Assembly: GCA_017478205.1 (NCBI GenBank) | Contig: JAFVDZ010000009.1 | Span: 1-33,002 of the forward strand | Reading direction: 5' to 3' | Length of the DNA stretch: 33,002 nt | Origin: Spirochaetales bacterium | Lineage (GTDB): Bacteria > Spirochaetota > Spirochaetia > Sphaerochaetales > Sphaerochaetaceae | Part shown: in pieces, positions 3,197 to 30,248 of the stretch | Numbering within the stretch: the first letter of the stretch is position 1 | Layout: every line of letters begins with the position of its first letter | Notes under the pieces: generated by a model | The model's database searches: none | What the model was told of the DNA's origin: nothing | Seen by the model: only the letters and a program-made list of their open reading frames with translations | Program-made: the position numbers and the translations under genes

Positions 3197-3235
3197 ATTG
3201 CATATCCTTTCTATTATTATAGCCATAATATAGCG

Positions 3236-3249: not shown

Positions 3250-3254
3250 AATGA

Positions 3255-3713
3255 TTATCGATTACTACAACTTGGGAACAGCGTAAGCTGGAAGAGTTGA
3301 TTTCTCTTGGTAATGGAAAAGACTACAAGCATCTTGAAAAAGGAGTTATTCCTGTATATGGCACTGGTGGCTACATGACTAGTGTTGATCAGTATTTGTG
3401 TGATAAGGATTCCATTGGAATTGGAAGAAAAGGTACTATTGATCAGCCTTATATTCTTCGAGCACCATTTTGGACTGTTGATACTTTATTCTTTGCAACA
3501 CCAAAAGATAATATCGAATTGGATTATTTATTTGGTATATTTCAAACTATTGATTGGAAACAAAAGGATGAGTCAACAGGTGTCCCGAGTCTATCTAAAC
3601 AAAACATAAACACTATTGAGGTTTTTGTATCTTTTGACAAAAGTGAACAGAAAAGTATTGGGAAACATTTTAGTCAACTCGATAACCTTATCACCCTTCA
3701 TCAGCGTGAGTAA
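3255..3713 (+). pseudogene. hsdS': Silent, start-less HsdS target-recognition cassette
   Basis: This open frame has no ATG. It begins just after a stop with LSITTTWEQRKLEELISLG and ends KHFSQLDNLITLHQRE plus a stop. The opening WEQRKL matches the junction in the active hsdS start. The ending LDNLITLHQR is the central conserved helix that closes an HsdS half, so the cassette is one complete target-recognition domain (about 140 residues) without promoter, start or second half. It points the opposite way to hsdM/hsdS. By comparison with phase-variable type I systems it is a storage copy, expressed only after inversion across the 15-bp repeats. It could instead be a dead remnant; the uninterrupted frame favours a reservoir. 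Confidence 0.75.
3272..3286 (+). repeat. Right arm of the hsdS inverted repeat
   Basis: TTGGGAACAGCGTAA reads here on the plus strand and is identical to the minus-strand copy at 182-196. It sits at the very start of the silent cassette, in the same reading frame (WEQRK), so an exchange between the arms would give an in-frame hybrid hsdS. Confidence 0.8.
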
Positions 3714-3878
3714 TAACGTCTTTATCTATATTTCCCTTCATATGGTTGGGGAAAAAGAGTCTCTTCTTTTCTTTTGTCTTCCCTTATAGAAAAATCCTAT
3801 AGGGTAATCTGACATCAGACTCTTTGATGATGGAAATAAATGTAGAATATAAAAAAGAAATAGAGAGTGAGTGAATTA

Positions 3879-4916: not shown

Positions 4917-7087
4917 TTGATCGAATTCCTTAATCTTTCGCTCCAGTCTTTGATCTTTCCGGGTTCGTCAAACCAGTATTCCTTTAGCAGGGGAATGATT
5001 TCAAACTCAACAATATTGGACAGCATTTGATCTGATATATCTTTTAATTCACAGAAATAACTATGCCCTATGCAAAAACCTTCACCAAGCGAGTCATCAT
5101 TTGAAATAAAATCATTCAGGCTTTTAATACAGTCAATTAATCTATTAAACTTTTTGTTACAAAAGGAATCAATGTAATCTTTGAATTTTTGATTTTCAAA
5201 GCATGGCTTCATTTCAAAGAAAGCAAATCTTCTTCGTAAAGCATAGTCCATCATAGCAAGGCTTCTATCAGCTGTGTTCATCATCCCAATAACATAGAGA
5301 TTCTTTGGAACTGAGAATTCCTCATCATTGTACAAAAGCCTTAAACCAATATCACGCTTATCTGCTTCAATCAGCATAAAAAGCTCGCCGAATATCTTGC
5401 TGAGATTTCCGCGGTTGATTTCATCAATGATAAAGAAATATGGAACATCTTCACCATCTTCCTCTGCGGATTTACAGAAATCATAGAATGGACCATGCTT
5501 AAGCTCAAAACCCCCAGACTGTGTTGGTCTGAATCCCATAATGAAATCTTCATAAGAGTAACTCTGATGAAACTGAACCATCATAACACGGCTCTGGTCT
5601 TTAACTTTCATAATTGAATATGCAAGCCTCTTCGCTGCATATGTCTTTCCAACACCGGGCGCACCTTGAAGTATGACATTTTTCTTATTCATCAGCAGAC
5701 TGACAAGTATCTCATACCGGTCTTTGTCCATGTAGACTTTATCGAGAAACATATCCTCATCATATGGATCCATCAGCATCTGAACTTCGCCGACAACGTC
5801 TTCATCAGAATCACTCTCAAACAACGTATTAAGTTTCTCAACATAATCCTTATACTTGGTTATGTCCGTCAAAACCTTCATCACAGCCTGCCCTGGATGT
5901 TGCCATTCTCCCCTGTTAGTCCATTTGATTTTACGCACATGCTCATATTGTTTTCGTTCTGGGTGAAACTCGTAGTCAGACTCAATTATTCCACGCCCTA
6001 TTACCAGCCTCATTCCCTTCTTGGCAAATACTATATCACCGGGTTTCATTTCATTGGCAAACTGCCATGTGGCATGGGCATCGTTCTTGTATGATTTCAT
6101 AGGATCAAACTTATCCTGCATTGCCTTCTTCATATCACTCTTTGAGTCATATTCAGAGAGGTTTCCAATACCATCTGGTCCTATGGCCATTATTCCAGAA
6201 TCGTAGAACTCATCCCAAAATGAGGCATTATCACCAGGAGAGTAAATCCAATAATGAATAGTCTTAACTCCTTCATCCGCCAGAGCAGCTCCTGTATTCT
6301 CTCTCTGTATTTCAGCCTTCTTGGCAGCATTCTCTTTGTTGACCTGGTCAGAGTATCTCCACGCCTCGAAACTTAACTCTTTGAAATCCTTAAGTTCACT
6401 AAAATCACTCTGTAGATATGCTCGTAGTTTTTCAACAATATCAAAGTATTTTTCTGAAGGTATTTTTGATTCAATAACTGGAAGTGTTCTTACAAGATCA
6501 TCCGGCATTTTGCCAGATTTATAGATGTACCATGTATTGCGCTGATCCAAATTCAAAAATGAATTTGGTGCAATCCAATAAAGACCCATTGTTATCTTGC
6601 TATTCCCGTTGCCTTTTTTGTTTATAGCAAGATCAAAATATTTTGAGAGAACACTCCTATTACTAGTGTTTGGATCATCGGCATAGGCAAGAGCAGATTC
6701 AAATAGTTCCCAAAGATCTTCAATGTCACTATCTTCCCGTTGATCGACGAAGCAGTAATAAGTAGCATTCTGGTTATTCAATACTGGGATACTATCAAAA
6801 GATGTTGGTATATCGGCCTTTATACAAAATAATTCTGCAACTGCTGAAATAATCGATATCCGATTCTCTGGCTTCATAGAGCTTTTGTTAAAAAGTCCAA
6901 AGACAGTAAATGGATCAATATCTACCAGATGATTGTCCTTTTCCAAGGTAGGCAAATTGAGACCCGTTTTCTCATATATCTGTTTGACTTTTGCTACAAG
7001 TTCTTTGCGATTGTTCTTATACTCTAATAACTTTCTAGCTAATTCCTTATAAAAATCTACCCAGTCAAACTGATTCACATTGCTCAT
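4913..7087 (-). CDS. mcrB: McrB-like AAA+ GTPase with N-terminal EVE/YTH-like modified-base reader
   Basis: This 724-residue motor and DNA-recognition subunit of McrBC opens with a helical region (1-270) of unclear fold. Residues about 277-405 (HYWIYSPGDN, then FYDSGIMAIG and MKPGDIVFAK) resemble the EVE/YTH group of pockets that flip out modified bases. The AAA+ domain follows: Walker A GAPGVGKT (about 474-482), Walker B FFIIDEINRG (about 549) and the McrB signature MNTADRSLAMMDYALRRRF (about 604). The McrB motor uses GTP in the studied family members. A reader placed before the motor is the usual McrB plan; the EVE-like identity rests on pattern only. The start codon follows an AAATCTCC-complementary weak site, and the gene diverges from the helicase at 7235. 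Confidence 0.9.
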   Translation of the reverse strand: MSNVNQFDWVDFYKELARKLLEYKNNRKELVAKVKQIYEKTGLNLPTLEKDNHLVDIDPFTVFGLFNKSSMKPENRISIISAVAELFCIKADIPTSFDSIPVLNNQNATYYCFVDQREDSDIEDLWELFESALAYADDPNTSNRSVLSKYFDLAINKKGNGNSKITMGLYWIAPNSFLNLDQRNTWYIYKSGKMPDDLVRTLPVIESKIPSEKYFDIVEKLRAYLQSDFSELKDFKELSFEAWRYSDQVNKENAAKKAEIQRENTGAALADEGVKTIHYWIYSPGDNASFWDEFYDSGIMAIGPDGIGNLSEYDSKSDMKKAMQDKFDPMKSYKNDAHATWQFANEMKPGDIVFAKKGMRLVIGRGIIESDYEFHPERKQYEHVRKIKWTNRGEWQHPGQAVMKVLTDITKYKDYVEKLNTLFESDSDEDVVGEVQMLMDPYDEDMFLDKVYMDKDRYEILVSLLMNKKNVILQGAPGVGKTYAAKRLAYSIMKVKDQSRVMMVQFHQSYSYEDFIMGFRPTQSGGFELKHGPFYDFCKSAEEDGEDVPYFFIIDEINRGNLSKIFGELFMLIEADKRDIGLRLLYNDEEFSVPKNLYVIGMMNTADRSLAMMDYALRRRFAFFEMKPCFENQKFKDYIDSFCNKKFNRLIDCIKSLNDFISNDDSLGEGFCIGHSYFCELKDISDQMLSNIVEFEIIPLLKEYWFDEPGKIKDWSERLRNSIK

Positions 7088-7234
7088 TCTATTTAAATCT
7101 CCTTACCTTTAGGTATCCGGGCACCATAAATATCTCTAGAATATAATATTTGACAAGATTCATGTCACATAATGATAACTTTATTTCGGTTTTGATGTAG
7201 TCTTTGTATGATAAAATCGCTTAGGTAATAGATC
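7088..7234. promoter_or_regulatory. Divergent intergenic region between mcrB and the helicase gene
   Basis: This 147-bp AT-rich region lies between two divergent defence genes and must hold both promoters. A TATGAT at 7207-7212 on the plus strand is a possible -10 for the helicase gene, but no good -35 is visible at the right distance. No inverted repeat stands out. Confidence 0.4.
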
Positions 7235-9946
7235 ATGGACTGGCAGAAGTATTGTGTCATAGACAACAAAACCCATAGAGATATCACAGACCGTATCAAA
7301 AGCATGCATAAGAGCATGATTAAATCAAGATACTACGTATGCTTCTATATCAAAGAAAAAGAGTATGAATACAGCCTTGATCGTCTCACCTGTCTTAAAG
7401 ATCCTCAGGTTGTTGATCTTGCAGATAGATATGTATTCGTCAATGGAATTCTACAGACAGATATTGTCCTCATCCTCAAGTTCCAGGATTGGTACAAGAT
7501 ACAATACACAAGTGGTACTGTAGAGACTGTACACGAGAAAAAACTACAGTTGATCAAGGACAGAAAGAAGGAGCCCTCTGTTTGCAATATCATTGGCTAC
7601 CTAACAGATATTGCTGCAAATGAAAATGATTCGCTATATCAAGATGAAGATGAGCCCAATTTCCTTGAAAAACAATTATCTTCTATCCCCATTCTCGAGA
7701 ATACTGTCCTCTCAGCCTTGATTTCAGATAAAGAGATCAAATCAATTCAAGACGATGGGCCAATAATTGCCCCATTCTCTTCGAATGAGTCTCAATTGAA
7801 GGCAATTCACAAAGCCTTGCATCACAACATATCTGAAATTCAAGGTCCTCCTGGAACAGGTAAGACACAGACAATTCTCAATATAATCTCAAACCTACTT
7901 GTCAGAGGAAAGACGATAGCCGTTGTCTCTGGCAACAACGAAGCAACTAGGAATGTCTATGAAAAGCTTCAAAAGGAAGGTTTAGGAGAGATATGTGCAT
8001 TCTTGGGAAACAAAGAGAACATAAAAGAGTTCTTCTCTCAAGATCACAGCAAAACTCAAATGCTGGAATATGCAGAAAGTTTCAGACACAGAATTGATGC
8101 ACGTGAGCTAAGGCTGCTTGAAAGAGCTGTTTTGGAAATATACAGAGATATAAATGAGAAAGCAAAGCTCAAGGCCGAAATTGATGAGTTGAAAATCGAG
8201 AAAGAAATCAACGATGAAAGTTATTCAAAAGATACACTGAAGCGCCCGAGTAAACTCAAGAAAAAGATGTCTGCAAAAAGCTGTCTCGAGCTTGCTGCAT
8301 TACTTGAAGCTGCCACGATAAAAGCTCCAAGTCTCTTCACAAGACTGAAGCTCTTTCTTTTCTACAAAATCGACCTGAAGAAGGAACTTGATATCTCGAT
8401 AATAATCGATTACTTGCAGAATCGATATTACGTAGAAAAACTAAAGGAAAACGAAGAGACACTTAGAAAAATCGAAAGAAGATATAGCGACAACAAGAAT
8501 AAGGAAACTCTAGAGAAGTTCCAGAAAGCATCAAAGGCTTACCTGATGTCTTCTCTCTTGCTAAGATATAGCAACTTGAAAGAAAAGAAATACTATGCAA
8601 GCAGCTATAGAAAGCATCAATCATTTGTTGCTCACTACCCAATTGTCCTCAGTACAACTCATTCACTTAACAGTTGTTCCCCAGAAGGTGTTCTCTATGA
8701 CTATGTAATCATCGATGAATCAAGTCAGGTAAATTTGACAAGTGCCGCTATCGCACTATCAAGAGCAAAGCGTGCTATTATCGTAGGTGACTCAAAACAG
8801 CTTCCTCATATAGTTCCAGAAAACCTGAAAGGTCCTCTGGAAATGATAAAGGAAAAGTATTCTGTCCCTTCCTGTTTCGACTACACAAGAAACAGTCTTC
8901 TTGAAAGCATTCAGATAAAATATGACTCACAACTGCCAATTACATTACTAAATGAGCACTATAGATGCGATCCAGAGATCATAGGCTTTTGCAATAAACG
9001 TTTCTATGATGGGAACCTAGTTATAGAAACCCAGCATCACGACAAGGGAGGAATCACTATCATCGAAACTCCTTCCCATACTGCTGAAGGAAGATGCAAC
9101 AGAAGGCAAGCTGAGATAATAAGAAGTGAAATCCTTCCTTCAGAAAAAGGAAGCAATGTAGGAATTGTGGCTCCTTATAGAAAGCAGGTTGCCTTGATAA
9201 AGGACTATATTCGTGATGAATCTATCCTTGTCGATACAGTCCATAAGTTCCAGGGAAAAGAAAGAGATACGATGATTCTATCTACTACTGCAGACAGGAC
9301 CGTAATATCTGAAGACCCTGAACATATCGACTTTTTGAATAACCCAAATCTAATCAACGTAGCAATATCCAGAGCAAAGAAAAAACTGTATGTCATTGCC
9401 TCTTCAGAGGCCCTATCACAAGAGGGAACACTACTTTGTGATCTCGCAAAGTATGTTAGCTGCTACTGCCAAAGCTCCAACAAGATCAAGACCAAGGTCT
9501 ATTCTGTCTTCGATCTCATGTATGACGAGTATTCCCCTATCCTACAGGATATGAAAAATCGCATCCTCAAGGTGTCTGAATTTCAAAGTGAGAATATCAT
9601 TGCAACAATCATTGATGAAATATGCAGAAGCAAAAAATATGGGCTCCTTTCCTTCAAGCACAACTATCCACTAAGGAAGATTGTTAATCCAAATGATTAT
9701 GAAAATACAGAGGAGAGAAACTTCATCCTCTCTCCTGGCTCTCATTGTGACTTCATCCTCTTTGACAAACTCAATAAAAGAATCCGTCTATGTATCGAGG
9801 TTGATGGAAAGCAGCATGAAGAGAAAATCCAGAAAGGTCGTGATGAAAAGAAAGATAGCATATTACATCAAGCAGACTTGAAGGTAATAAGGATCAAGAC
9901 GACTGATCTGAATGTAAAGAAAAGGATAGAAGAACAGCTGAAATAG
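7235..9946 (+). CDS. Upf1-like SF1 helicase with C-terminal DUF2726-like nuclease domain
   Basis: This 903-residue protein is predicted to couple ATP-driven nucleic-acid unwinding to a nuclease-like tail. Residues 1-170 are an unrecognised N-terminal domain. The SF1 core shows motif I GPPGTGKT (204-211), motif II IDESSQ (about 492), motif III GDSKQLPHI, motif IV/V VDTVHKFQGKERD (about 666) and motif VI NVAISRAKKKL (about 706). A Lys/Glu-rich helical insert occupies about 275-430. The C-terminus (about 835-903) reads FILFDK, CIEVDGKQHEE, IRIKTTDL, the pattern of the PD-(D/E)XK-like DUF2726 domain. It starts divergently from mcrB, which places it in the defence island; helicase-nuclease fusions of this kind are common in such islands. 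The start ATG has only a weak AGGT site. Its precise target is unknown. Confidence 0.85.
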   Translation: MDWQKYCVIDNKTHRDITDRIKSMHKSMIKSRYYVCFYIKEKEYEYSLDRLTCLKDPQVVDLADRYVFVNGILQTDIVLILKFQDWYKIQYTSGTVETVHEKKLQLIKDRKKEPSVCNIIGYLTDIAANENDSLYQDEDEPNFLEKQLSSIPILENTVLSALISDKEIKSIQDDGPIIAPFSSNESQLKAIHKALHHNISEIQGPPGTGKTQTILNIISNLLVRGKTIAVVSGNNEATRNVYEKLQKEGLGEICAFLGNKENIKEFFSQDHSKTQMLEYAESFRHRIDARELRLLERAVLEIYRDINEKAKLKAEIDELKIEKEINDESYSKDTLKRPSKLKKKMSAKSCLELAALLEAATIKAPSLFTRLKLFLFYKIDLKKELDISIIIDYLQNRYYVEKLKENEETLRKIERRYSDNKNKETLEKFQKASKAYLMSSLLLRYSNLKEKKYYASSYRKHQSFVAHYPIVLSTTHSLNSCSPEGVLYDYVIIDESSQVNLTSAAIALSRAKRAIIVGDSKQLPHIVPENLKGPLEMIKEKYSVPSCFDYTRNSLLESIQIKYDSQLPITLLNEHYRCDPEIIGFCNKRFYDGNLVIETQHHDKGGITIIETPSHTAEGRCNRRQAEIIRSEILPSEKGSNVGIVAPYRKQVALIKDYIRDESILVDTVHKFQGKERDTMILSTTADRTVISEDPEHIDFLNNPNLINVAISRAKKKLYVIASSEALSQEGTLLCDLAKYVSCYCQSSNKIKTKVYSVFDLMYDEYSPILQDMKNRILKVSEFQSENIIATIIDEICRSKKYGLLSFKHNYPLRKIVNPNDYENTEERNFILSPGSHCDFILFDKLNKRIRLCIEVDGKQHEEKIQKGRDEKKDSILHQADLKVIRIKTTDLNVKKRIEEQLK

Positions 9947-9947: not shown

Positions 9948-10886
9948 TTAGATTTCAAGCACATCAAAGCATCCAAGATATCGAATTGAAGAATTTTCCT
10001 TTATCTTCTCTATCTGCTTTTCTGTTATTCCTCTTTCACTCTCAACCTCGATGATATAGTTATATACACCAAGATTACTTCCTTCTGGTCTATCATGAAT
10101 CGTCACAAGCTCAAGACCTGCTTTATGCAAGCTGTTGATAATATTATAGAGCTCACTTGCTTCACAGCTTACAACGAATGCAGCATGGGATTGTCCATTT
10201 TCATCAAGTGGTGATGATGATAGAACATAGAATCTGGTTTTATTTGTCTCTGTGATCTGAACATCTCTTGCCAAAACAGAAAGTCCATATAGCTTTGCAG
10301 CTCCAGGGGCCGCAACTGCAGCAATTGTCTTATCATTGGTTGCAGCAACATGACTTGCAGCTGCAGCAGTGCTGCTCATCACTTTTGTTTCAGCATTAGG
10401 AAGATGCTCTTTTCTCCACTTTTCACTCTGTGTGATCCCCTGTGCATGAGAACAGACAAGAGTGATATCATCAAGAGAAGAGCCTGGAAGGCCCATCAAA
10501 GTCTGACTGATAGGCAATACTACTTCCCCTACCACATAGACTCTTTCTTCTGAGATCAAGGCATCTACATAGTTTATTACTGCTCCGCCTAAAGTATTCT
10601 CCTGTGGAATTACAGCATAATCTGCAGTTCCATCAACAACAGCTGCAATGGCTTCTGGCACTGTAGTTTTTGGCATCAGTGAAGAGTTTTCACTGAAGAA
10701 AAGCTCGGTTGCTTCTTCTGTATAAGTTCCCTTTGGACCAAGATAGCTGATACGAGCATCCTTATCGATCTGTAAAACATCCAGCTCACCCTGTGATGTC
10801 TCAAGAGACGTACTATGGCATGATGAAAATGCCAGAAGAAACAAAACAGCCAATATCAAATACAGAAATTTATTCTTTAGACTCAT
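9948..10886 (-). CDS. Prephenate dehydratase with ACT domain carrying a lipoprotein signal peptide
   Basis: Residues 45-220 form a prephenate dehydratase domain, which converts prephenate to phenylpyruvate in phenylalanine synthesis: ISYLGPKGTYTEEA at the start, VIPQENTLGGAV in the middle and the catalytic TRF motif at 217-219 (NKTRFYVL). An ACT regulatory domain follows (about 235-312), with HDRP in place of the usual ESRP motif. The first 22 residues are a classical signal sequence (K-N-K, then a Leu-rich core) ending AFSSC, with Cys23 as likely lipidation site. This would put the enzyme on the outer side of the membrane, whereas PheA-type dehydratases are normally cytosolic. I chose the ATG at 10886 over a GTG at 10895 for its AAAGGTG spacing. 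Only 1 nt separates its stop from that of the convergent helicase gene. Confidence 0.85.
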   Translation of the reverse strand: MSLKNKFLYLILAVLFLLAFSSCHSTSLETSQGELDVLQIDKDARISYLGPKGTYTEEATELFFSENSSLMPKTTVPEAIAAVVDGTADYAVIPQENTLGGAVINYVDALISEERVYVVGEVVLPISQTLMGLPGSSLDDITLVCSHAQGITQSEKWRKEHLPNAETKVMSSTAAAASHVAATNDKTIAAVAAPGAAKLYGLSVLARDVQITETNKTRFYVLSSSPLDENGQSHAAFVVSCEASELYNIINSLHKAGLELVTIHDRPEGSNLGVYNYIIEVESERGITEKQIEKIKENSSIRYLGCFDVLEI

Positions 10887-10895
10887 ATCTTGCAC

Positions 10896-15688: not shown

Positions 15689-15718
15689 TTACTTAATGCC
15701 TGTTTTATGGGTTATAAT
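15689..15718 (+). promoter_or_regulatory. Promoter of the sugar operon with TSS at or near the ATG
   Basis: A perfect TATAAT lies at 15713-15718, with a weak TTACTT 18 bp upstream (15689-15694). Only six bases separate the -10 from the ATG at 15725, so transcription should start at or within a base or two of the start codon. No Shine-Dalgarno is present. Confidence 0.6.
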
Positions 15719-15724
15719 TGCCCT

Positions 15725-16660
15725 ATGGCACTCAAGATAACTACGCTCGGAGAGGTTCTTGTCGACTTGACACAGACATCTGTGAGTGAGAATGGAATAA
15801 TAAATTTTACTGCAAATCCAGGAGGCGCACCTGCCAATGCAGCAGTTGCTGCCTCAAGATTGGGAGCAGAATCAGCCTTCATCGGCTGTGTTGGACAAGA
15901 CTCCTTTGGAAAATATCTAAGCGATACGCTAAAAGAGAACAAAGTAGACATCTCAGGCTTGCAGGTTACTGACAATGCAAGCACGACTATCGCTGTCGTA
16001 ACTGTAGATGAAACAGGAGAGAGAAGCTTCTCTTTCTTGCGTAAGCCAGGTGCTGATATGCTCCTTGATGCTGATAGGGCGATTGCAAGTGCAAGGAATA
16101 CAGGAATTCTGCACTTTGGAAGCGTCAGTCTCACTTCTGAAGAACCCCGCAATACTATCAAGAAGATTGTAAGTACACTGAAAGAAGATGGTGCGATCAT
16201 AACATATGACCCGAACTATCGTGCATCTCTTTGGGAAAACGAGGCTGAAGCAATCAAATACATGAGAGAGGTCATCCCATTTGCTGACATCATGAAGATC
16301 AGTGACGAGGAAACTCTCCTCCTCACAGGAGAGAAGGATGCAAAGAAGGCATCTCTTGCCCTACACTCTCAGGGCGTAAAACTTGTACTTGTCACACTTG
16401 GCTCAAATGGTGCCTTCTTCAGTACAGGAAGCATCGCAGGAACCGTTCCTGGCTACAAGGTCAAGGTTGCAGACACTAACGGAGCTGGGGACACCTTCTT
16501 TGGAGCATTTCTTAGCAGGATTGCTCTTAGAGGAGGAATAGACAATATCACAGAAAAAGAACTGAAGGAATATGTAGACTTTGCAAACAAGGCCGCATCG
16601 ATTACGGCAAGTCGCAGAGGCGCTATTCCTGCAATGCCATATTTGGGGGAAATTTTATGA
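15725..16660 (+). CDS. PfkB-family carbohydrate kinase, probable fructokinase
   Basis: This 311-residue ribokinase-fold enzyme is likely to phosphorylate fructose. Signature 1 is NPGGAPANAAVAASRLG. Signature 2 contains the anion hole and catalytic base, DTNGAGDTFFGAFL (Asp of GAGD). The opening ITTLGEVLVDL is typical of fructokinases. I chose the ATG at 15725 rather than 15707 because a perfect TATAAT sits just before it, which would make the earlier ATG untranscribed and this mRNA leaderless. The stop overlaps the next ATG by 4 bp (ATGA), linking it to the amylosucrase, which releases fructose. That coupling is the main reason for the fructose assignment. Confidence 0.85.
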   Translation: MALKITTLGEVLVDLTQTSVSENGIINFTANPGGAPANAAVAASRLGAESAFIGCVGQDSFGKYLSDTLKENKVDISGLQVTDNASTTIAVVTVDETGERSFSFLRKPGADMLLDADRAIASARNTGILHFGSVSLTSEEPRNTIKKIVSTLKEDGAIITYDPNYRASLWENEAEAIKYMREVIPFADIMKISDEETLLLTGEKDAKKASLALHSQGVKLVLVTLGSNGAFFSTGSIAGTVPGYKVKVADTNGAGDTFFGAFLSRIALRGGIDNITEKELKEYVDFANKAASITASRRGAIPAMPYLGEIL

Positions 16661-18507
16661 CAGACAGGACCACCTGGAAAGAGGAGTTCGCAAAACGTTT
16701 TTCAAAGCATGAGGATGAACTGAAATATCTGTACCTCGAGCTCTATCACAATGATCAGATGGCATACGACTATTTCGTATCCATGCTCTACAATCTCTGG
16801 ACAAAGAGACCTGAGAATCTGAAAAAGATCGACCGCGCCCGCGAAGAGCTCTCCGACTGGTACAAAGGAAACACACTTACCGGTATGCTCATGTACGTCA
16901 ATGCCTTTGCAGGAAACTTGAAGGGCGTAAAGGAAAAGCTGGATTATATCGAGGATTGCGGAGTCAATTACCTTCACCTCATGCCTCTTCTCAAGAGCCC
17001 TAAGGACAGAAGTGATGGGGGCTATGCAGTCAGTGACTTCAGAAGTGTACAGCCAGAGCTTGGAACCATGAAGGACCTTTCCGCCCTTTCAGATGCTTGC
17101 CACAAGAGAGGTATCTCTGTCTGTCTCGACTTTGTCATGAACCACACAAGTGAAGACCATGAGTGGGCAAAGAGAGCCAGAGCTGGCGAAAAGGAGTATC
17201 AGGACCGCTACTTCTTCTATGACAACTGGGATATCCCAAACCAGTTCGAACAGACAGTTCCTCAAGTATTCCCTGTATCAGCTCCAGGCAACTTCAGCTG
17301 GTGCGCTGAAGCAAAGAAGGTCGTCATGACCACCTTCTACCCATATCAGTGGGATTTGAATTATGCAAATCCTGTCGTCTTCAACGACATGACCGATAAT
17401 ATGCTGAATCTCTGCAATCACGGTGTCGATATCATCCGCCTCGATGCAGTCCCATATATATGGAAGGAGCTTGGAACACCATGCAGAAACCTTCCTCAGG
17501 TACATACACTCGTCAGGATCATGAGAATGGTCTGTGAAATCGTATGTCCAGGAACCCTTCTACTTGGTGAAGTTGTCATGGAACCAAGCAAGGTTGTTCC
17601 TTACTTTGGCACTGTAGAAAAGCCAGAGTGTCACCTTCTTTACAACGTAACTACGATGGCAACTATCTGGCACACAGTAGCAACTCAGGATACTAGACTT
17701 CTCGCTCATCAAATGGAGCAAGTATTCTCACTTCCTAAGGAGTACACATTCCTTAATTACTTAAGATGCCATGATGATATCGGTTGGGGGCTTGACTACC
17801 CATTCATCAGCCGCTTCGGGCAGAAGGAAATTCCACACAAGAAGTATCTCAACGACTTCTTGACAGGTAACTGGCCTAACAGCTTTGCACGTGGAGAACT
17901 ATATAACAACGATCCAAAACTTGGAGATGCAAGACTCTGTGGCACAACAGCATCCCTCTGCGGAATCGAAGCAGCAACTCAAAGTGGAGACAAGGAAGCA
18001 CTCAAGAGAGCAATTACATTAGACACGATGCTCCATGCATTCATGTTCACACTAAGTGGTGTACCAGTACTCTACTCTGGTGATGAAATTGCTCAGCTCA
18101 ATGACAACTCCTATCACAATGACCCTATCAAGCAAGATGATAGCCGTTACCTCCATAGAGGCGCCCTCGACTGGAAGAAGGCAGAAAAGAGAAACAAGAA
18201 AGGACATGTCGAAGAGAAGATCTTCAAGGCACTCAAGAAGATGGAGAAGATCAGAGGAGAGCATAGAGTCTTCGATTCAACTGCAGACACCTGGCTTGTA
18301 AACACAGGCAAGCACAATGTCATCGCAATCGGTAGATACTTCAAGGGCGAGAAGATGTTTGCATTCTTCAATTTCTCAGATGAGGTACAATCTGTCTGGA
18401 TTCCAGATGATGGCAAATTCAAGAATATGATGACTGGCAGAAATCAGAGCCAGCCTTATTCAGATATAGAACCATTTGACTTCAAGTGGTTCGTAACGGA
18501 GATGTGA
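16657..18507 (+). CDS. GH13 amylosucrase-type enzyme
   Basis: This 616-residue intracellular enzyme matches amylosucrase, which converts sucrose to alpha-1,4-glucan plus fructose. Visible features are the family-specific stretch SPKDRSDGGYAVSDFR with Asp120, nucleophile Asp263 in DIIRLDAV, acid/base Glu305 in LLGEVV, transition-state Asp373 in RCHDDIGW, and Arg497 in QDDSRYLHRG. Asp120 and Arg497 align with the Asp-Arg pair that closes the active-site pocket in Neisseria amylosucrase. There is no signal peptide. It sits between fructokinase and a HAD phosphatase, 0.9 kb before a sucrose-type PTS gene. Either the PTS product sucrose-6-phosphate is first dephosphorylated or this enzyme accepts the phosphate directly. 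Glucosidase or sucrose phosphorylase activity is the alternative; the pocket residues argue against phosphorylase. Confidence 0.85.
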   Translation: MTDRTTWKEEFAKRFSKHEDELKYLYLELYHNDQMAYDYFVSMLYNLWTKRPENLKKIDRAREELSDWYKGNTLTGMLMYVNAFAGNLKGVKEKLDYIEDCGVNYLHLMPLLKSPKDRSDGGYAVSDFRSVQPELGTMKDLSALSDACHKRGISVCLDFVMNHTSEDHEWAKRARAGEKEYQDRYFFYDNWDIPNQFEQTVPQVFPVSAPGNFSWCAEAKKVVMTTFYPYQWDLNYANPVVFNDMTDNMLNLCNHGVDIIRLDAVPYIWKELGTPCRNLPQVHTLVRIMRMVCEIVCPGTLLLGEVVMEPSKVVPYFGTVEKPECHLLYNVTTMATIWHTVATQDTRLLAHQMEQVFSLPKEYTFLNYLRCHDDIGWGLDYPFISRFGQKEIPHKKYLNDFLTGNWPNSFARGELYNNDPKLGDARLCGTTASLCGIEAATQSGDKEALKRAITLDTMLHAFMFTLSGVPVLYSGDEIAQLNDNSYHNDPIKQDDSRYLHRGALDWKKAEKRNKKGHVEEKIFKALKKMEKIRGEHRVFDSTADTWLVNTGKHNVIAIGRYFKGEKMFAFFNFSDEVQSVWIPDDGKFKNMMTGRNQSQPYSDIEPFDFKWFVTEM

Positions 18508-18508
18508 T

Positions 18509-19333
18509 ATGAAAAATAAACTCATTTTTCTAGATATCGACGGAACACTTACCGAAGCAGGAAGCAACACGCCACCAGAAAGTGCACTCATTGCAATCAG
18601 GAAGGCTATGGAAAAAGGACATAAGATATTCCTCTGTACAGGAAGAAACCCTGCAATGCTTGCTCCTGTTCTCGAGTATGGGTTCGACGGTGCAGTCGCA
18701 TGTGGTGGTGGCTATATCTTCACAAAGGACGAAGTGCTATATGACTGTCCAATGACTGAAGAGCAGCGCGTTACAGGTCTTGAGCTTTTAAAGAAGCATG
18801 GAGTCTTCAGAACGATCGAAGCAAAGGACTGTACATATGGAGATGAAGAGCTCGGAGAGTTCCTTTCGGGTCAGGAAGGTGGTAACAGTGAATTGATCAG
18901 ATGGAGAAAGGCGCTTGCAGAGCAGCTCAATATCCACCCAATGAAGGAGTACGATGGCAGACCACTTTATAAGATCGTATTCATGTGCAAATCATACGAC
19001 CAGCTCGATGAAGCAAAGGAAGCTCTTGAGAAGGATTTCAACTTTGTGGTCCAGGATGTTGCAGCTCACAGCTGTCTCAATGGAGAACTTGTCAACAAGA
19101 AGTTCGACAAGGGCAAGGGTGTCAGAATCGTAGCAGAGCACTTTGGCATCCCGATCGAAGACACTATCGGCTTTGGTGATAGCATGAATGATCTTGAGAT
19201 GATAGAGACTGTTGGAATGAGTGTATGTATGGACAATGGCAGCCCTCTTTTGAAGGAAAAAAGCAAGATGATCGCACCAGCTGTCACCGACGATGGCCTT
19301 TACAAAGCCTTCGAAGAGCTCGGTCTAATCTAA
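18509..19333 (+). CDS. Cof-type HAD-IIB sugar phosphatase
   Basis: This 274-residue cytosolic phosphatase of the haloacid dehalogenase superfamily has motif I FLDIDGTLT (Asp8 and Asp10), motif II CTGR and motif IV FGDSMNDLEM, with a C2-type cap between. Cof-type enzymes remove phosphate from sugar phosphates. It begins 1 nt after the amylosucrase stop and is the last gene of the three-gene unit. In this setting a plausible substrate is sucrose-6-phosphate made by the PTS, or a side-product sugar phosphate; this is inference. Sucrose-phosphate phosphatases of plants and cyanobacteria belong to the same HAD-IIB group. Confidence 0.85.
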   Translation: MKNKLIFLDIDGTLTEAGSNTPPESALIAIRKAMEKGHKIFLCTGRNPAMLAPVLEYGFDGAVACGGGYIFTKDEVLYDCPMTEEQRVTGLELLKKHGVFRTIEAKDCTYGDEELGEFLSGQEGGNSELIRWRKALAEQLNIHPMKEYDGRPLYKIVFMCKSYDQLDEAKEALEKDFNFVVQDVAAHSCLNGELVNKKFDKGKGVRIVAEHFGIPIEDTIGFGDSMNDLEMIETVGMSVCMDNGSPLLKEKSKMIAPAVTDDGLYKAFEELGLI

Positions 19334-19341
19334 AAATCATT

Positions 19342-19375
19342 TTGACTTTTTTATTTACATCTCAAAAAATGTCAA
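19342..19375. promoter_or_regulatory. Interrupted inverted repeat over the PTS promoter
   Basis: TTGACTTTTTT and AAAAAATGTCAA pair with one bulge around 11 bp. It overlaps the -35 and spacer of the promoter at 19354-19382. It may be an operator for a sugar-responsive repressor or a weak terminator after the HAD gene. Confidence 0.4.
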
Positions 19376-19382
19376 ATAGAAT
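19354..19382 (+). promoter_or_regulatory. Promoter of the PTS gene cluster
   Basis: TTTACA (19354-19359) and TAGAAT (19377-19382) match consensus at five of six positions each, with 17 bp between. Start of transcription would be near 19389, giving a leader of about 59 nt. Confidence 0.6.
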
Positions 19383-19400
19383 TTAAAAGGATTTATCCGT

Positions 19401-19433
19401 ATCCGTGGGTATCCATCCCGCGGATATTTTTTT
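19401..19433 (+). terminator. Leader terminator hairpin next to the PTS ribosome binding site
   Basis: ATCCGTGGG (19401-19409) pairs with CCCGCGGAT (19417-19425) through one G-T wobble and a 7-nt loop, followed by T7 and then at once AGGAGG. It lies after the predicted start site, so it can act as an attenuator. A competing GGATTTATCC hairpin (19389-19398) directly precedes it. No clear match to the BglG/SacT antiterminator target was found. Confidence 0.65.
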
Positions 19434-19447
19434 AGGAGGAAATTTTT

Positions 19448-21295
19448 ATGGCTCTCGACTACAGGAAATGTGCAGAGCAGATCGCTGCAAATATTGGCGG
19501 TGGCTCTAATGTCGTAAGCGCTGCACATTGCGCAACTAGGCTCAGGTTGGTAATTGCAGACAACAGCAAGATCAACAAGAAAGCTCTCGAAGATGTTGAA
19601 GGTGTTAAGGGAATGTTCGAATCCAATGGTCAGATTCAGCTCATCATTGGAACTGGTACAGTCAACAAGGTATATGATGAATTCCTTGCAGTTACTGGCG
19701 CAAGTGCTGCTACAAAGGATGATGTAAAGAAAGCAGCTGCAGCTCAGATGCCTCTCTGGAAGAGAATTCTAAAGACACCAGGTGATGTATTCGTACCAAT
19801 CCTTCCAGCTATCGTAGCTTCCGGTCTCATGATGGGTCTCGTAGAAGCTCTGGCAAAGGTAATTCCATCTTTCGGTGCAACTGGTTGGTTCCAGTTCCTT
19901 GATATGGTTGCAAATACCGCATTTGCACTTCTCCCAGTTCTCGTAGCTGTATCCTCAGCAAGAGTATTCGGTGCTAACATCTTCCTCGGTGCTGTTATCG
20001 GTATCATGATGGTTCACCCAGCTCTCATGAACGCATGGACAGTTACCCCAACCAACCAGCCAGCTGTCTGGATCAAGCTCGGATTCTTGAAGATTTCTGC
20101 TGTTGGTTATCAGGGTCACGTAATCCCAGTAATTCTCGCTGTACTCCTCATGTCCAAGATCGAGAAGTGGCTCCACAAGCATGTTCCTGAGATGATCGAC
20201 CTCTTTGTTACTCCACTCGTAACAGTCATGGCAACAGCATTCGCAACATTCATGGTAATCGGACCATTCTTCTCTGTTCTCGAGAACTACGTACTTATCG
20301 GTGCTCGCTGGCTCGTAACAAGTACTGGTGGTATCGGTGCTCTCATCATGGGTGCTATCTATCCATTCACAGTTGTCATGGGTCTACACCATATGTACAA
20401 CGTTATCGAAGCTGGTATGCTCGCATCCGGTGGTCTCAACATCTGGATGCCAATCGCTTCTGCTGCTAACTTCGCTCAGTTTGGTGCATGTATCGCAGTT
20501 GCTTACAAGTGCCACAGTGCAAAGCTCAAGTCAGTTGCTCTCCCAAGCTCCCTTTCTGCAGCTCTCGGTATCACAGAACCAGCAATCTTCGGTGTCAACT
20601 TCAGATTCCTCAAGCCATTCATCGCAGGTGTTATCGGTGGTGCTGTCGGTTCCCTCTTTGGTGCTATCGCAGGCCTCGGTGCTACAGCTTATGGTGTAAC
20701 AGGTATCCCAGGATATCTCATCATCGACCACAAGATTCCTTATACAATTCTTCTCCTGATCAGTGGTGGTGTTGCATTCGCAATCACACTTTTCATCTGG
20801 CACGAAGAGAAAGAAGAGCCAAAGGCAGAAGAGAAGAAGACTGAACCAGCTCCAGCTGTCAAGTTTGAAGCTCCAGCAGTCATCCGCTGCAAGAACGGTA
20901 CTGTCATGCAGCCAGTTAAGGGCTCTGTTGTAAAGAGAGAGGATATTCCAGATGCAACATTCGCATCCGGCGTTCTCGGTGATGGTGTTGGTATTGTTCC
21001 AACAGAAGGTCTCGTAGTTGCTCCTTTCAAGGGAACAGTTACTTCTGTTGCAGAGAGCAACCACGCAGTTGGCCTCGAAGCTAATGGTATGGAACTTCTC
21101 ATCCACGTTGGCGTTGATACTGTCAACATGAAGGGTGATGGCTTTACCTGTCTTGTCAAGGAAGGCGACGCTATCGAAGCTGGCCAGTCACTTATCCGCT
21201 TCGATATGGATAAGATCAAGGCTGCTGGTTACAACAACACTGTAGCAGTTCTTCTTACCAACGCTGAAGACCTCGAAGAGGTAGTCTGCGGTTAA
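19448..21295 (+). CDS. PTS sugar transporter EIIBCA, glucose/sucrose family
   Basis: This 615-residue membrane permease phosphorylates its sugar during import. The EIIB domain (1-90) has phosphorylation Cys28 in SAAHCATRLRL. The EIIC membrane domain (about 105-455) includes LPAIVASGLMMG and the GITEPAIFGVN motif. After an acidic Lys/Glu/Pro linker comes EIIA-Glc (about 475-615) with His539 (SNHAVGL) and phospho-acceptor His553 (LLIHVGVDTV). The B-domain sequence VKGMFESNGQIQLIIGTGTVNKV is like sucrose-specific EII proteins. Codon choice is extreme (CTC for Leu, ATC for Ile, GGT for Gly), which suggests very high expression and creates long false frames on the other strands. It follows the fructokinase-amylosucrase-HAD unit and precedes HPr. 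Confidence 0.92.
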   Translation: MALDYRKCAEQIAANIGGGSNVVSAAHCATRLRLVIADNSKINKKALEDVEGVKGMFESNGQIQLIIGTGTVNKVYDEFLAVTGASAATKDDVKKAAAAQMPLWKRILKTPGDVFVPILPAIVASGLMMGLVEALAKVIPSFGATGWFQFLDMVANTAFALLPVLVAVSSARVFGANIFLGAVIGIMMVHPALMNAWTVTPTNQPAVWIKLGFLKISAVGYQGHVIPVILAVLLMSKIEKWLHKHVPEMIDLFVTPLVTVMATAFATFMVIGPFFSVLENYVLIGARWLVTSTGGIGALIMGAIYPFTVVMGLHHMYNVIEAGMLASGGLNIWMPIASAANFAQFGACIAVAYKCHSAKLKSVALPSSLSAALGITEPAIFGVNFRFLKPFIAGVIGGAVGSLFGAIAGLGATAYGVTGIPGYLIIDHKIPYTILLLISGGVAFAITLFIWHEEKEEPKAEEKKTEPAPAVKFEAPAVIRCKNGTVMQPVKGSVVKREDIPDATFASGVLGDGVGIVPTEGLVVAPFKGTVTSVAESNHAVGLEANGMELLIHVGVDTVNMKGDGFTCLVKEGDAIEAGQSLIRFDMDKIKAAGYNNTVAVLLTNAEDLEEVVCG

Positions 21296-21322: not shown

Positions 21323-21580
21323 ATGAAGTCATTCGAATACACAATCAAGGATCCAGTAGGTATCCACGCTCGTCCAGCAGGACTTCTTGTAAAGGAAGTA
21401 AAAAATTATACATCTACAGTCACAATCGCTAAGGGCGAAAAGGCTGTAAATGCTCTCAAGCTCATGGCATTAATGGGCATGGGTATCAAGCAGGGTGATA
21501 CTGTAAAGGTTACAGTAGAGGGTGCAGACGAAGAGACTGCAGCAGCTGCAATTGAAGCCTTCTTCAATGCAAATCTTTGA
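21323..21580 (+). CDS. ptsH: HPr phosphocarrier with Lys at position 46
   Basis: This 85-residue general PTS phosphocarrier has active His15 in GIHARPAG. The second regulatory site, Ser46 in Bacillota and many other groups, aligns with Lys46 (NALKLMALMGMG). An HPr without Ser46 cannot be modified by HPr kinase, so CcpA-type catabolite control is not expected through this protein. It lies between the EII gene and ptsI with AAAAGGAG upstream. As the only HPr seen here it probably serves all PTS sugars of the cell. Confidence 0.95.
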   Translation: MKSFEYTIKDPVGIHARPAGLLVKEVKNYTSTVTIAKGEKAVNALKLMALMGMGIKQGDTVKVTVEGADEETAAAAIEAFFNANL

Positions 21581-21603: not shown

Positions 21604-23262
21604 ATGATTTCCATTCAGGGAAAGGGTGTTTCTACAGGTGTAGCAATTGGTCCTCTCTACTTTTACAAGAGAACCAGTGCAACAATAACAAGAGAAACCG
21701 TCAGTGATACTGCAAAGGAATGGGATCGCTTCAAAGCTGCACAGGTAAAGGCCATCGACCAGCTCGGCGAGCTGGCCGAAAAGGCCCGCCAAGAAGCTGG
21801 CGATTCAGCTGCTCTTCTTTTCGAGACTCACCAGATGATGGCTGAGGACCTCGATTACGAAGAAAGCATCCAGACACTTATCCAGGACGAAAAGCTTAAT
21901 GCAGAAGCAGCTGTAACTGACACAGCTAGCCAGTTTGCTGCAATGTTTGCAGCTATGGATGATCCATATATGCAGGCAAGAGCAGCCGATGTAAAGGACG
22001 TTTCTTCTAGAATCATCGGTATCCTCACTGGAGCAGTCCAGGGTGGTATCGATTCCAAGGTTCCTGTAATCTTGGCAGCTGACGACCTCGCACCAAGTGA
22101 GACTGTACAGCTTGATAAGAGTAAGATTCTCGGCTTTGTTACAGAAGGAGGAAGTGGCTCTAGCCACACAGCTATCCTTGCTCGTACCATGGGCATTCCA
22201 GCCATCATTGGTGTTGGTGACCAGGTAAAGAAAGAGTTCGAAGGACGCGAAGTAATCATCGATGGAAGTCTCGGCGTTGTCATCATCGATTCAGATGCTA
22301 CAACAAAGTCACAGATGGTAGCCAAGAAGGAAGAGCAGAGAAAGAACCGCGAGATGCTCGAGCTTCTGAAGGGCAGAGCCAATGAAACTAAGGACGGACA
22401 CAGTATTCGCATCTACTGTAATATTGGAAGTCCTGACGATGTTTCAGCTGTTCTTGGAAACGATGCAGGTGGTATCGGTCTCTTCCGCTCTGAATTCCTC
22501 TATCTCAACTGTGATGACTATCCAACAGAGGATTATCAGTTCGAAGCCTACAAGAAGGTTCTTTCCGACATGGAAGGAAGAGAAGTAATCATCAGAACAC
22601 TGGATATTGGTGCTGACAAGCAGATCGATTACTTCGATCTTCCTAAGGAAGAGAACCCAGCTATGGGTAACAGAGCACTTAGAATCTGTCTTTCTAGGCC
22701 AGAAATCTTCCTTACCCAGCTCAGAGCTCTCTACAGAGCATCTGTATTCGGTAAGCTTTCTATCATGTTCCCAATGGTTGCAAGCGTCTGGGAAGTAAAG
22801 GAAGCTAAGAAGATGTGCGAGAGAGTCAAGAAGGAGCTTACTGAAGAAGGAAAGGCCTTCAGTGATGATGTACACATTGGTATCATGATCGAGACTCCAG
22901 CTGCAGCAATGATCAGTGATAGACTTGCAAAGGAAGTTGACTTCTTCTCTTGCGGAACCAATGACCTTACTCAGTACACATTGGCTTGTGACAGACAGAA
23001 TGCAGATCTCGGAAGATTCTTCGATCCACACCACCCTGCTGTACTTCGTCTCTTGAAGCTTGTCGCTGACAACGCTCACAAGAACAATATCTGGGTTGGT
23101 ATCTGTGGTGAACTCGGTGCTGATCTCTCTCTGACAGAGACCTTCCTCTCTATCGGAATCGACGAGCTCAGTGTTTCACCAAGATCAGTTCTGCCTCTAA
23201 GACAGAAGGTCAGAGAGATCAATGTCGCATCCGTAAAGGATAAGATTCTTGAGAATCTTTGA
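21604..23262 (+). CDS. ptsI: PTS enzyme I
   Basis: This 552-residue phosphoenolpyruvate-protein phosphotransferase passes phosphate from PEP to HPr. Phospho-acceptor His188 is in GGSGSSHTAILARTMGIPAI. The PEP-binding C-terminal barrel shows GIGLFRSEFLYL, MIETPAAAM, SCGTNDLTQYTLACDR and the catalytic Cys loop GICGELGAD. Length is close to the usual 570. AAAGGAGG precedes the ATG. A strong terminator follows at 23281, ending the EII-HPr-EI unit. Confidence 0.97.
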   Translation: MISIQGKGVSTGVAIGPLYFYKRTSATITRETVSDTAKEWDRFKAAQVKAIDQLGELAEKARQEAGDSAALLFETHQMMAEDLDYEESIQTLIQDEKLNAEAAVTDTASQFAAMFAAMDDPYMQARAADVKDVSSRIIGILTGAVQGGIDSKVPVILAADDLAPSETVQLDKSKILGFVTEGGSGSSHTAILARTMGIPAIIGVGDQVKKEFEGREVIIDGSLGVVIIDSDATTKSQMVAKKEEQRKNREMLELLKGRANETKDGHSIRIYCNIGSPDDVSAVLGNDAGGIGLFRSEFLYLNCDDYPTEDYQFEAYKKVLSDMEGREVIIRTLDIGADKQIDYFDLPKEENPAMGNRALRICLSRPEIFLTQLRALYRASVFGKLSIMFPMVASVWEVKEAKKMCERVKKELTEEGKAFSDDVHIGIMIETPAAAMISDRLAKEVDFFSCGTNDLTQYTLACDRQNADLGRFFDPHHPAVLRLLKLVADNAHKNNIWVGICGELGADLSLTETFLSIGIDELSVSPRSVLPLRQKVREINVASVKDKILENL

Positions 23263-27672: not shown

Positions 27673-29964
27673 TTACAGCTTTGCACGTATGATCTTTCCA
27701 CTTGTAGTCTTTGGAAGCTCGTCACGGAAGACTACCAGTCTTGGATACTTGTATGGTGCTGTATGCTCCTTTACATAGTTCTGGATCTCTTTCTTGAGCT
27801 CCTCAGTTGGTTGGGTATCCTTCGTAAGTACAATGGATGCCTTGACTATCTGTCCTCTGACTGGGTCTGGAGAAGCAGAAACACCACATTCCATGACATA
27901 TGGAAGCTCCATGATGACAGATTCGATTTCAAATGGTCCAATTCTGTAACCAGAGGATTTGATCATATCATCGGTCCTTCCAACATACCAATAGTAGCCA
28001 TCCTCATCCATCCACGCAGTGTCTCCAGTATGATAATAGCCATCGTGACAGACCTGTGCTGTCTTCTCCTCATCGTTATAGTAGCCCACAAAGAGACCAC
28101 ATGGCCTACCTTTCTTGATATTGACTACGATTTCACCAGTTTCTCCAACAGGGACGCTCTTTCCATCCTTGTCGACAAGAGAGATATCGTAGATAGGAGC
28201 AGGCTTGCCCATTGAACCCACCTTGTGTCCTGCTCTGACAAGATTTCCTATCATCATGGTGCTTTCGCTCTGGCCAAAGCCTTCATGAATCTTAAGCCCT
28301 GTCAGCTTCTCGAACTGGCGGTAGACCTCTGGGTTGAGAGCCTCACCTGCAGTTGTCATGCGCCTGACCGAAGAGAAATCATACTTCGACAAGTCTTCCT
28401 TTATCATCATCCTGAGCATGGTTGGAGGTGCACAGAAGCTGGTAATCTGGTACTTGGCAAACATAGGCATGATATCGGCAGCATTGAAGCGATCGAAGTC
28501 ATAGACAAAGGTTGCGCATTCGGCAAGCCACTGACCATAGAGCTTTCCCCACATGGCCTTTGCCCATCCTGTGTCGCTTATGGTGAAGTGCAAGCCATCT
28601 TCCTTTGCACAATGCCAATACTTTGCAGTGTGGAAGTGTCCAAGAGGATATTTATGGTTGTGAGCTGCAATCTTTGGAAAGCCTGAAGTTCCAGATGTGA
28701 AGAACATCAGGAGAAGATCATCACCACATGGACTGTTTTCATTCTTGCGGAAACTGGATGTGAACATCTTGTATTCCTCATCGAAGCTTCTCCAGCCTTC
28801 ACGACTTGAGTTCACTATCAGCTTATGCTTCAAGGAAGGACAGTTCTTCTCAGCCTCTTCTACATGCTGAGGAATACCATCATCGCTTGTACAGATTACA
28901 GCACTTATGCCAGCTGCGTTGATCCTGTATTCGATATCATGTGCAAGCAGTTGATTGGTTGCAGGAATTGCAATGGCACCTAGCTTGTTGAGGCCTAGCA
29001 TTGCAAACCAGAACTGATAGTGGCGCTTGAGGATCAGCATGACCCTATCGCCCTTCTTTATTCCAAGGCTCTTGAAATAGTTTGCACACCTTCCCGATTC
29101 CTTCTTCATGTTGTTGAATGAAAAGCGTCTTTCCGTCTTGTCCTTGGAAACATGCAGCATTGCAAGCTTATCTGGCTCTCTCCTTGCTATCTCATCAACG
29201 ACATCGAAAGCGAAGTTGAATTTCTCGGTATTCTTGAATTGGATATTTACAGGAGTTCCTCTCTCATTTAGTTCGACATCGATGAAGTTGTGCCAGATTC
29301 TTTTTGAATCATCGACCTTCTGCAACTCCTGATATTGAGGAGAATAGGTAACAGGAGTGAGTTCAGGGATGGGTGCACCTGTCGGGTTGAGTACAATTGC
29401 ATAAAATTCGCAATCCTTTCCACCAGTTGCGATCATGCCATGTGGTGTAGATGAGCCAAAATATATGGAATCTCCAGGACCAAGAGTAGTGCGATGCTCT
29501 CCGACCTGTACAAGGAGACTTCCATTTATGACGATATCAAGCTCCTGACCATCATGGCTTGTTAGCTCTATATCCCTATGCTGAGCTTCCGGGTCATAGA
29601 CACTCTTGACATACAAAGGCTCTGCAATCCTGTTCTGGAAGGCATATGCAAGATTGAAGTAGGTCATGCCATGGGCATTGGAAATTTCCTGCCCCTTTCC
29701 TGCACGTGTGACGGTGAAGGATTTGAGGGTTGGGCTGTGACCTTCGATGATATCGGTAACATCGACACCCAAAGCAAGAGCACATCGATAGATGAAGGTG
29801 AAGTTCAAGTCCCCCTTTCCCGACTCGCATGCAAGATATTCCTCTCTGCTTGTCTGTGTCTTTGCTGCCATTTCATAGGTAGTCAAACCCTCGATTTCCC
29901 TGAGTTCCTTTATTCTCGCAGCCATCTCCTGAATCTTGAAATCCAGACCTGTGATATGAGCCAT
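27673..29964 (-). CDS. Fusion of XRE-type HTH, cupin sensor and AMP-forming acyl-CoA ligase
   Basis: This 763-residue protein has three parts. Residues 11-70 are an XRE helix-turn-helix (LTTYEMAAKTQTSREEYLAC then ESGKGDL). Residues 120-195 are a cupin barrel with His137, Glu141 and His175 as possible metal or ligand contacts (SHDGQELDIVINGSL, STPHGMIA). From about 250 to 763 runs a ligase of the medium-chain acyl-CoA synthetase type: P-loop FTSGTSGFPK, GFGQSESTMM, hinge GRTDDMIKSSGYRIG and catalytic Lys757 in TSGKIIRAKL. It would activate a carboxylic acid to acyl-AMP and then acyl-CoA. HTH-cupin proteins are normally separate regulators; here sensor and enzyme are one chain. I chose the ATG at 29964, 3 nt after GGGAGGAG. 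A T-box riboswitch precedes it. Confidence 0.88.
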   Translation of the reverse strand: MAHITGLDFKIQEMAARIKELREIEGLTTYEMAAKTQTSREEYLACESGKGDLNFTFIYRCALALGVDVTDIIEGHSPTLKSFTVTRAGKGQEISNAHGMTYFNLAYAFQNRIAEPLYVKSVYDPEAQHRDIELTSHDGQELDIVINGSLLVQVGEHRTTLGPGDSIYFGSSTPHGMIATGGKDCEFYAIVLNPTGAPIPELTPVTYSPQYQELQKVDDSKRIWHNFIDVELNERGTPVNIQFKNTEKFNFAFDVVDEIARREPDKLAMLHVSKDKTERRFSFNNMKKESGRCANYFKSLGIKKGDRVMLILKRHYQFWFAMLGLNKLGAIAIPATNQLLAHDIEYRINAAGISAVICTSDDGIPQHVEEAEKNCPSLKHKLIVNSSREGWRSFDEEYKMFTSSFRKNENSPCGDDLLLMFFTSGTSGFPKIAAHNHKYPLGHFHTAKYWHCAKEDGLHFTISDTGWAKAMWGKLYGQWLAECATFVYDFDRFNAADIMPMFAKYQITSFCAPPTMLRMMIKEDLSKYDFSSVRRMTTAGEALNPEVYRQFEKLTGLKIHEGFGQSESTMMIGNLVRAGHKVGSMGKPAPIYDISLVDKDGKSVPVGETGEIVVNIKKGRPCGLFVGYYNDEEKTAQVCHDGYYHTGDTAWMDEDGYYWYVGRTDDMIKSSGYRIGPFEIESVIMELPYVMECGVSASPDPVRGQIVKASIVLTKDTQPTEELKKEIQNYVKEHTAPYKYPRLVVFRDELPKTTSGKIIRAKL

Positions 29965-29975
29965 ATTCTCCTCCC

Positions 29976-30232
29976 AAAAAAAATACTCGCCCCAAATAAA
30001 CTTTGAGACGAGTATATTACCCGCGGTACCACTCAAATTGCGTAGTTTCCTACGCCTCTTTCAGAGTCCTACAACTCCTATGTCCTAACGCGACAGATTC
30101 GGAAATGCTCTACTTGCCTTATCGGCTTTCTGCATTTCAGCTCGGGAGCGACAGTCTTTTCGCCATCACCTACGGTTCGCACCACCCACCGCCTCTCTCC
30201 TGGCTATTCGAAAAAACACTCTCCGTCAATGC
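29976..30232 (-). promoter_or_regulatory. T-box riboswitch controlling the HTH-cupin-ligase gene
   Basis: The minus-strand leader carries the T-box sequence GAGTGGTACCGCGG (30034-30021). GAGT pairs with ACTC to form the antiterminator. The competing terminator is an 11-bp stem, ATACTCGTCTC (30015-30005) with GGGGCGAGTAT (29993-29983), followed by T8, and they share ATACTC. A stem III hairpin, GCGTAG-GAAA-CTACGC, precedes the T-box. Stem I is closed by GCATT/AATGC and has the GAGC kink-turn element before TGAAATG. Hand alignment with glyQS places GTC (30152-30150) followed by G in the specifier position, which would mean valine. Uncharged tRNA would allow transcription into the ligase gene. 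The T-box and terminator are clear; the specifier is tentative. Confidence 0.88.
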
Positions 30233-30248
30233 TTTTAAATTTTTTTCC

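Follow-up and report, generated by a model that had tools for sequence, protein, structure and literature searches.

The locus lies in the window, the whole 33,002-nucleotide stretch of DNA analysed here, which comes from a rumen spirochaete MAG of the Sphaerochaetaceae (1.9 Mb, completeness 97.5%). Four intact genes are tightly packed in the same direction on the forward strand between positions 15725 and 21295. These encode a PfkB-family sugar kinase (15725..16660), a GH13 subfamily 4-like enzyme related to amylosucrases and sucrose hydrolases (16657..18507), a HAD-IIB (Cof-type) phosphatase (18509..19333) and a PTS EIIBCA of the sucrose/beta-glucoside family (19448..21295). The initial annotation had described a sucrose PTS combined with an amylosucrase-type GH13, a kinase and a HAD phosphatase, and all four genes were found as named; it missed, however, two further genes downstream on the same strand, encoding HPr (21323..21580, identified by translation, with the L003 orthologue matching PF00381) and PTS enzyme I (EI; 21604..23262; TIGR01417, 607 bits, above the cut-off). 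With HPr and EI following EIIBCA, a complete PTS is encoded.

The kinase and GH13 genes overlap by four bases and a single base separates the GH13 stop codon from the HAD gene. The 114-base gap upstream of the EII gene holds a promoter-like site (19354-19382, forward strand) followed by a terminator-like hairpin with a T run (19399..19427, forward strand). As similar promoter-like sites also precede the EII gene in relatives, EII, HPr and EI probably form a second transcription unit. The hairpin lies ahead of the EII ribosome-binding site and differs in sequence while keeping its position in four relatives (L099, L003, L032 and L100); the site and hairpin together (19354-19427) may serve to end the upstream transcript or else to attenuate EII. 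An Rfam search of the region before EII matched no known leader RNA. It should also be noted that a TATAAT box lies approximately eight bases ahead of the start codon of the kinase gene, which lacks a Shine-Dalgarno sequence (15711-15727), and that L001, L002, L014 and L032 have similar boxes immediately ahead of the start. The kinase-GH13-HAD mRNA may be leaderless.

The kinase belongs to the PfkB family (PF00294, E 1e-63). Its nearest NCBIfam model is fructokinase PRK09434, which it matched with 231 bits, below the equivalog cut-off of 450, and it is best described as a fructokinase. The HAD protein matched Pfam Hydrolase_3, with a secondary match to the S6PP family (PF05116, 33 bits) above the cut-off. 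It also passed TIGR00099 (Cof-type) and keeps the HAD motifs, of which DIDGT and GFGDSMND were invariant among 30 relatives, but it scored 64.9 bits against the stricter SPP subfamily model TIGR01482 with its cut-off of 107.15. The structure model of this protein (pLDDT 90) was nearest to 3fzq, 2pq0 and the sugar-phosphate phosphatase BT4131. HAD-IIB phosphatases are often promiscuous.

The product of the GH13 gene matched Pfam Alpha-amylase, and its catalytic residues D263, E305 and D373 are present. Its best PDB sequence matches were all amylosucrases (E 1e-134), and the top 18 sequence matches and top 21 fold matches were all amylosucrases and sucrose hydrolases, placing the enzyme in GH13_4. 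The AlphaFold model matched these enzymes with Z scores of 38-43 (43.1 for 4ays and 39.3 for the sucrose hydrolase 3czg). Identity to the amylosucrase of Deinococcus radiodurans was 41% over 500 columns, and the clade as a whole was 37-41% identical to the two characterised amylosucrases compared (Neisseria, Deinococcus). An intact pocket had been claimed for this enzyme from its motifs and this proved right: in NpAS numbering, the equivalents of D144, Y147, H187, F250, R284, D286, E328, H392, D393 and R446 were invariant in 81 of 81 relatives and that of R509 (R497 here) was kept in 80, so that the catalytic and minus-1 subsite residues are those of GH13_4. The clade also has basic residues absent from the characterised amylosucrases compared (R118, R184, K221, R277 and K312) and specific changes around the catalytic residues (P266, G304, V307 and M308). 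Pro 266, followed by Tyr 267, occurs throughout the clade, with Ala-Phe in both amylosucrases compared; these positions presumably correspond to NpAS 289-290, the sites of engineered A289P-F290 mutants named in the titles of matched structures, so that the acceptor specificity of the clade may be naturally different. Transfer and hydrolysis are both known activities in GH13_4. At the level of the family, the enzyme would pass glucose either to an alpha-glucan or to water.

The EIIBCA protein, with PTS_EIIB, EIIC and EIIA_1 domains, scored 514.7 bits against the sucrose IIBC model TIGR01996 (cut-off 559.3) with the beta-glucoside model close behind at 511.3 bits (cut-off 614.7), and it is therefore named as a sucrose type by association and not by a curated model. 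This association comes from its close relatives. The EIIs of L092 and L095, with 78-79% full-length identity to that of the window, are divergently oriented from GH32 genes, as is that of L094 (86% over 405 residues). The EII of L041 (80%) is encoded in a single operon in the order GH32-kinase-HAD-EII-HPr-EI, where the GH32 protein passes TIGR01322 scrB_fam for sucrose-6-phosphate hydrolases (431 bits, cut-off 356). Given these GH32 neighbours, sucrose is likely to be the substrate, in agreement with the sucrose PTS first proposed. Six Clostridial EIIs (L006, L012, L017, L022, L024 and L090) carry an insertion in EIIC at approximately residue 198-208 within one open frame of 690-770 residues.

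Use of sucrose through a PTS normally ends in a sucrose-6-phosphate hydrolase. The cluster has no GH32 enzyme of this kind and is thus not a classical scrAB operon. It had been suggested that a GH32 hydrolase elsewhere might handle the sugar, and none was found in a search of the host genome; a search for GH4 there also gave no match. The remaining GH13s of the host are GlgB and one divergent protein, and no other candidate for a sucrose-cleaving enzyme was retained. GH32 was likewise not matched in the genomes behind eight spirochaete loci (L001-L005, L014, L032 and L037) or in seven EII-bearing Clostridial genomes (G009, G011, G022, G024, G030, G031 and G043), giving 16 EII-bearing genomes without GH32 including the host. 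Although single MAGs can miss genes, the agreement of approximately 15 of them makes assembly loss an unlikely cause of this absence. Among 119 genomes of the host family, a set that overlaps with those above, this GH13 type (at least 72% identity) was present in 10 including the host, and GH32 was found in none of these 10 compared with 20 of the other 109. The deficit is suggestive only (p 0.21) and was not taken as significant.

Of 80 related loci, which come from rumen spirochaetes and Clostridia, 47 pair the GH13 gene with the HAD gene, and in most of these the EII, HPr and EI genes follow if the contig extends far enough. This linkage is far beyond chance, since dozens of loci in two phyla share the gene order. 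The GH13 of the window is 93% identical to that of the Sphaerochaetaceae MAG L001, 72-81% to those of rumen and gut Spirochaetales and 67-76% to those of Clostridia. In variants of the arrangement, a LacI regulator gene separates GH13 from HAD (eleven loci, L055-L058, L063, L064, L068-L070, L073 and L076), the kinase gene lies at the opposite end (L043, L044, L046, L060 and L062), GH32 lies up- or downstream (fifteen loci, L017, L022, L025-L029, L041, L055-L057, L063, L066, L069 and L070) or GH13 is located away from EII-HAD units (L089 and L090). With GH32 in or near the cluster of many Clostridial relatives, the GH13/HAD branch is there an additional route and not the only one. In a tree whose root is not fixed, the nine spirochaete GH13s grouped together with support 99 amid Clostridial sequences, which suggests that the spirochaete gene was acquired by transfer from Clostridia. 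Other GH13_4 genes examined in the host family (42-49% identity) have no HAD or EII neighbours, and two of them (L112 and L114) adjoin a gene for an ABC sugar-binding protein.

Comparative tests bear on which enzyme meets sucrose-6-phosphate. Of 50 genomes carrying relatives of this GH13, 35 have both HAD and EII, four have EII only, one has HAD only (a fragment) and ten have neither (Fisher p 1e-6, to be read only as a guide as genomes were chosen for GH13 and relatedness was not corrected for). One of the four with EII only, G008, has the start of a HAD gene at the end of its contig (L037) and the other three (G027, G047 and G049) all have GH32. The HAD gene also adjoins EII in L041, L089 and L090, with GH13 divergent or located elsewhere, as is expected if HAD acts on the product of EII. 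GH13, on the other hand, is not tied to the transporter, with an EII of this kind absent down to E 1e-40 in 11 of the 50 genomes. In the tree, GH13s from PTS-linked and EII-lacking genomes are interleaved with at least three supported label changes, and their pocket residues are identical. Column 197 (F/Y) was the only site separating the two sets, which gives no sign of a phosphate-adapted GH13 subgroup. The interleaving and the shared pocket indicate that the two sets probably act on the same substrate; where EII is lacking, free sucrose would be the simplest candidate. The HAD-EII pairing, the independence of GH13 from EII and the pocket and fold match to sucrose-acting GH13_4 enzymes together favour free sucrose as the substrate of GH13, with HAD supplying it from the PTS product.

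The cluster is real and conserved. Functionally it is a variant of the sucrose PTS module, with the role of ScrB most likely taken over by HAD and GH13_4. Sucrose PTSs place the phosphate on C6 of the glucose half. In the proposed two-step route, EIIBCA with HPr and EI would import sucrose as sucrose-6-phosphate phosphorylated at glucose C6, and HAD would then strip the phosphate inside the cell to give free sucrose. GH13_4 would split this by the retaining mechanism of amylosucrases, which frees fructose and transfers glucose either to alpha-1,4-glucan or to water, and the PfkB kinase would convert fructose to fructose-6-phosphate. The glycogen genes of the host, a check called for by the initial annotation, include two genes of glgA type, one for glycogen phosphorylase (glgP) and one for a GlgB that scores above its cut-off. 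With this set present, a glucan made by GH13 could be branched by GlgB and mobilised by GlgP, and GH13 is not the sole possible source of glucan. It is suspected, with somewhat better than even confidence, that ScrB has been replaced by this two-step route. Removal of phosphate before GH13 was one of two routes which had been put forward as uncommon and it is the one favoured by the comparative evidence, but the arrangement itself turned out to be common in rumen spirochaetes and Clostridia.

A weak point of the two-step route is that, of the 24 genomes in which EII occurs along with a GH32 match, 21 also have HAD, and sucrose can be opened there without it. HAD could simply relieve sugar-phosphate stress and would then track EII too, which would also account for these cases. 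The fold neighbours of HAD are in addition mostly general sugar-phosphate phosphatases, with the sucrose phosphatase 1s2o only 40th, and the GH13 is at low identity to characterised amylosucrases, carries the extra basic residues and is known here from hosts that are MAGs.

The main rival is a direct attack of GH13 on sucrose-6-phosphate. Its products would be fructose and glucose-6-phosphate (or an acceptor carrying a 6-phosphoglucosyl group), and HAD would be a general relief phosphatase for sugar phosphates. This would be the simplest pathway and fits the fructokinase, the basic residues conserved in the clade and the 16 EII-bearing genomes with no GH32 left for the job; GH13_29 enzymes are also known to accept 6-phosphoglucosides. 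However, the minus-1 residues checked are kept, including the pocket-closing Asp-Arg pair and the His adjacent to O6, GH13s of the genomes lacking this EII have the same pocket, and the tight HAD-EII pairing would be left with no specific reason. The direct attack is accordingly held to be a possible but rather unlikely reading, and that the GH13_4 clade is a new phospho-sucrose glucosidase or transferase, replacing ScrB in one step, is slightly more doubtful still. Two co-located systems, with GH13 making alpha-glucan from sucrose imported otherwise and the PTS feeding another sucrose-6-phosphate hydrolase, are improbable: several Clostridia do have GH13 away from the PTS operon and GH32 beside the PTS (L092, L094 and L095), but GH32 was not found in the host or in 15 further genomes with EII, the host has neither GH4 nor GH13s other than those named above, and the HAD gene starts almost directly at the end of GH13. 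It is very improbable that the EII transports some other alpha- or beta-glucoside and that the cluster serves a sugar other than sucrose. The near-equal scores below both curated cut-offs would allow it, but in L092 and L095 close relatives of the EII are divergently oriented from GH32, and the operon of L041 contains the scrB_fam GH32 and a fructokinase gene.

Among known systems, the scrA-scrB-scrK sucrose PTS operon is alike in its sucrose-family EII, fructokinase and PTS energy coupling, but the host has HAD and GH13_4 in place of GH32, and HPr and EI lie inside the cluster. The proposed logic of the two-step route is closest to that of MapP and maltose phosphorylase in Enterococcus faecalis, where MapP is reported to dephosphorylate PTS-imported maltose-6-phosphate (PMC3737437): a disaccharide phosphate is brought in, dephosphorylated in the cytosol and split with its bond energy kept. 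Compared with that account, the sugar would be sucrose and not maltose, the phosphatase is a HAD-IIB protein and not of the endonuclease/exonuclease/phosphatase fold, and an amylosucrase-like GH13 takes the place of the phosphorylase. The amylosucrases (GH13_4; Neisseria, Deinococcus) and the sucrose hydrolase SUH of Xanthomonas share fold, catalytic and minus-1 residues with the window GH13, which differs from the two amylosucrases compared in its identity level, the four changes around the catalytic residues and its PTS context. In Synechococcus PCC7002, the spsA-sppA-frkA-amsA operon, which handles sucrose made by the cell (PMC11046441), likewise brings together a sucrose-phosphate phosphatase, fructokinase and amylosucrase, but the phosphate in that case originates in synthesis and sits on the fructose half, while in the proposed route it would originate in PTS import and sit on the glucose half. 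The sucrose 6F-phosphate phosphorylase (GH13_18; 6s9v) is also a GH13 acting on phosphorylated sucrose, though of another subfamily (fold Z 32 against 43 for amylosucrase) and with the phosphate on the other sugar. In Faecalibacterium prausnitzii, an amylosucrase degrades sucrose and its gene lies with a fructokinase beside a fructan ABC importer (PMC8894670). A literature search that covered few subscription journals found no description of the combination of PTS, HAD and GH13_4.

A sucrose PTS with no hydrolase in widespread rumen bacteria would imply either a route of phosphorylation followed by dephosphorylation or a new GH13 specificity. If the dephosphorylation route is true, imported sucrose could enter storage glucan with no further ATP. 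Predictions of sucrose fermentation from rumen genomes would also change, since a genome lacking GH32 would otherwise be taken to be incapable of using PTS sucrose.

Elsewhere in the window, a defence-like island (251-9946) encodes a type I methyltransferase (852 aa), a McrC-like protein, an AAA protein which may be the McrB partner of its McrC-like neighbour, and an SF1 helicase with DUF2726. A prephenate dehydratase domain lies behind a lipoprotein-like signal (LAFSSCHS) on the reverse strand (9948-10895), which is odd for a biosynthetic enzyme. A T-box leader (Rfam RF00230, above the cut-off) was detected on the reverse strand at 30001-30238. It precedes the gene for an AMP-binding enzyme that also has HTH and cupin domains (27673-30036), a setting in which T-boxes are unusual, and has a pyruvate kinase-like gene on its other side.
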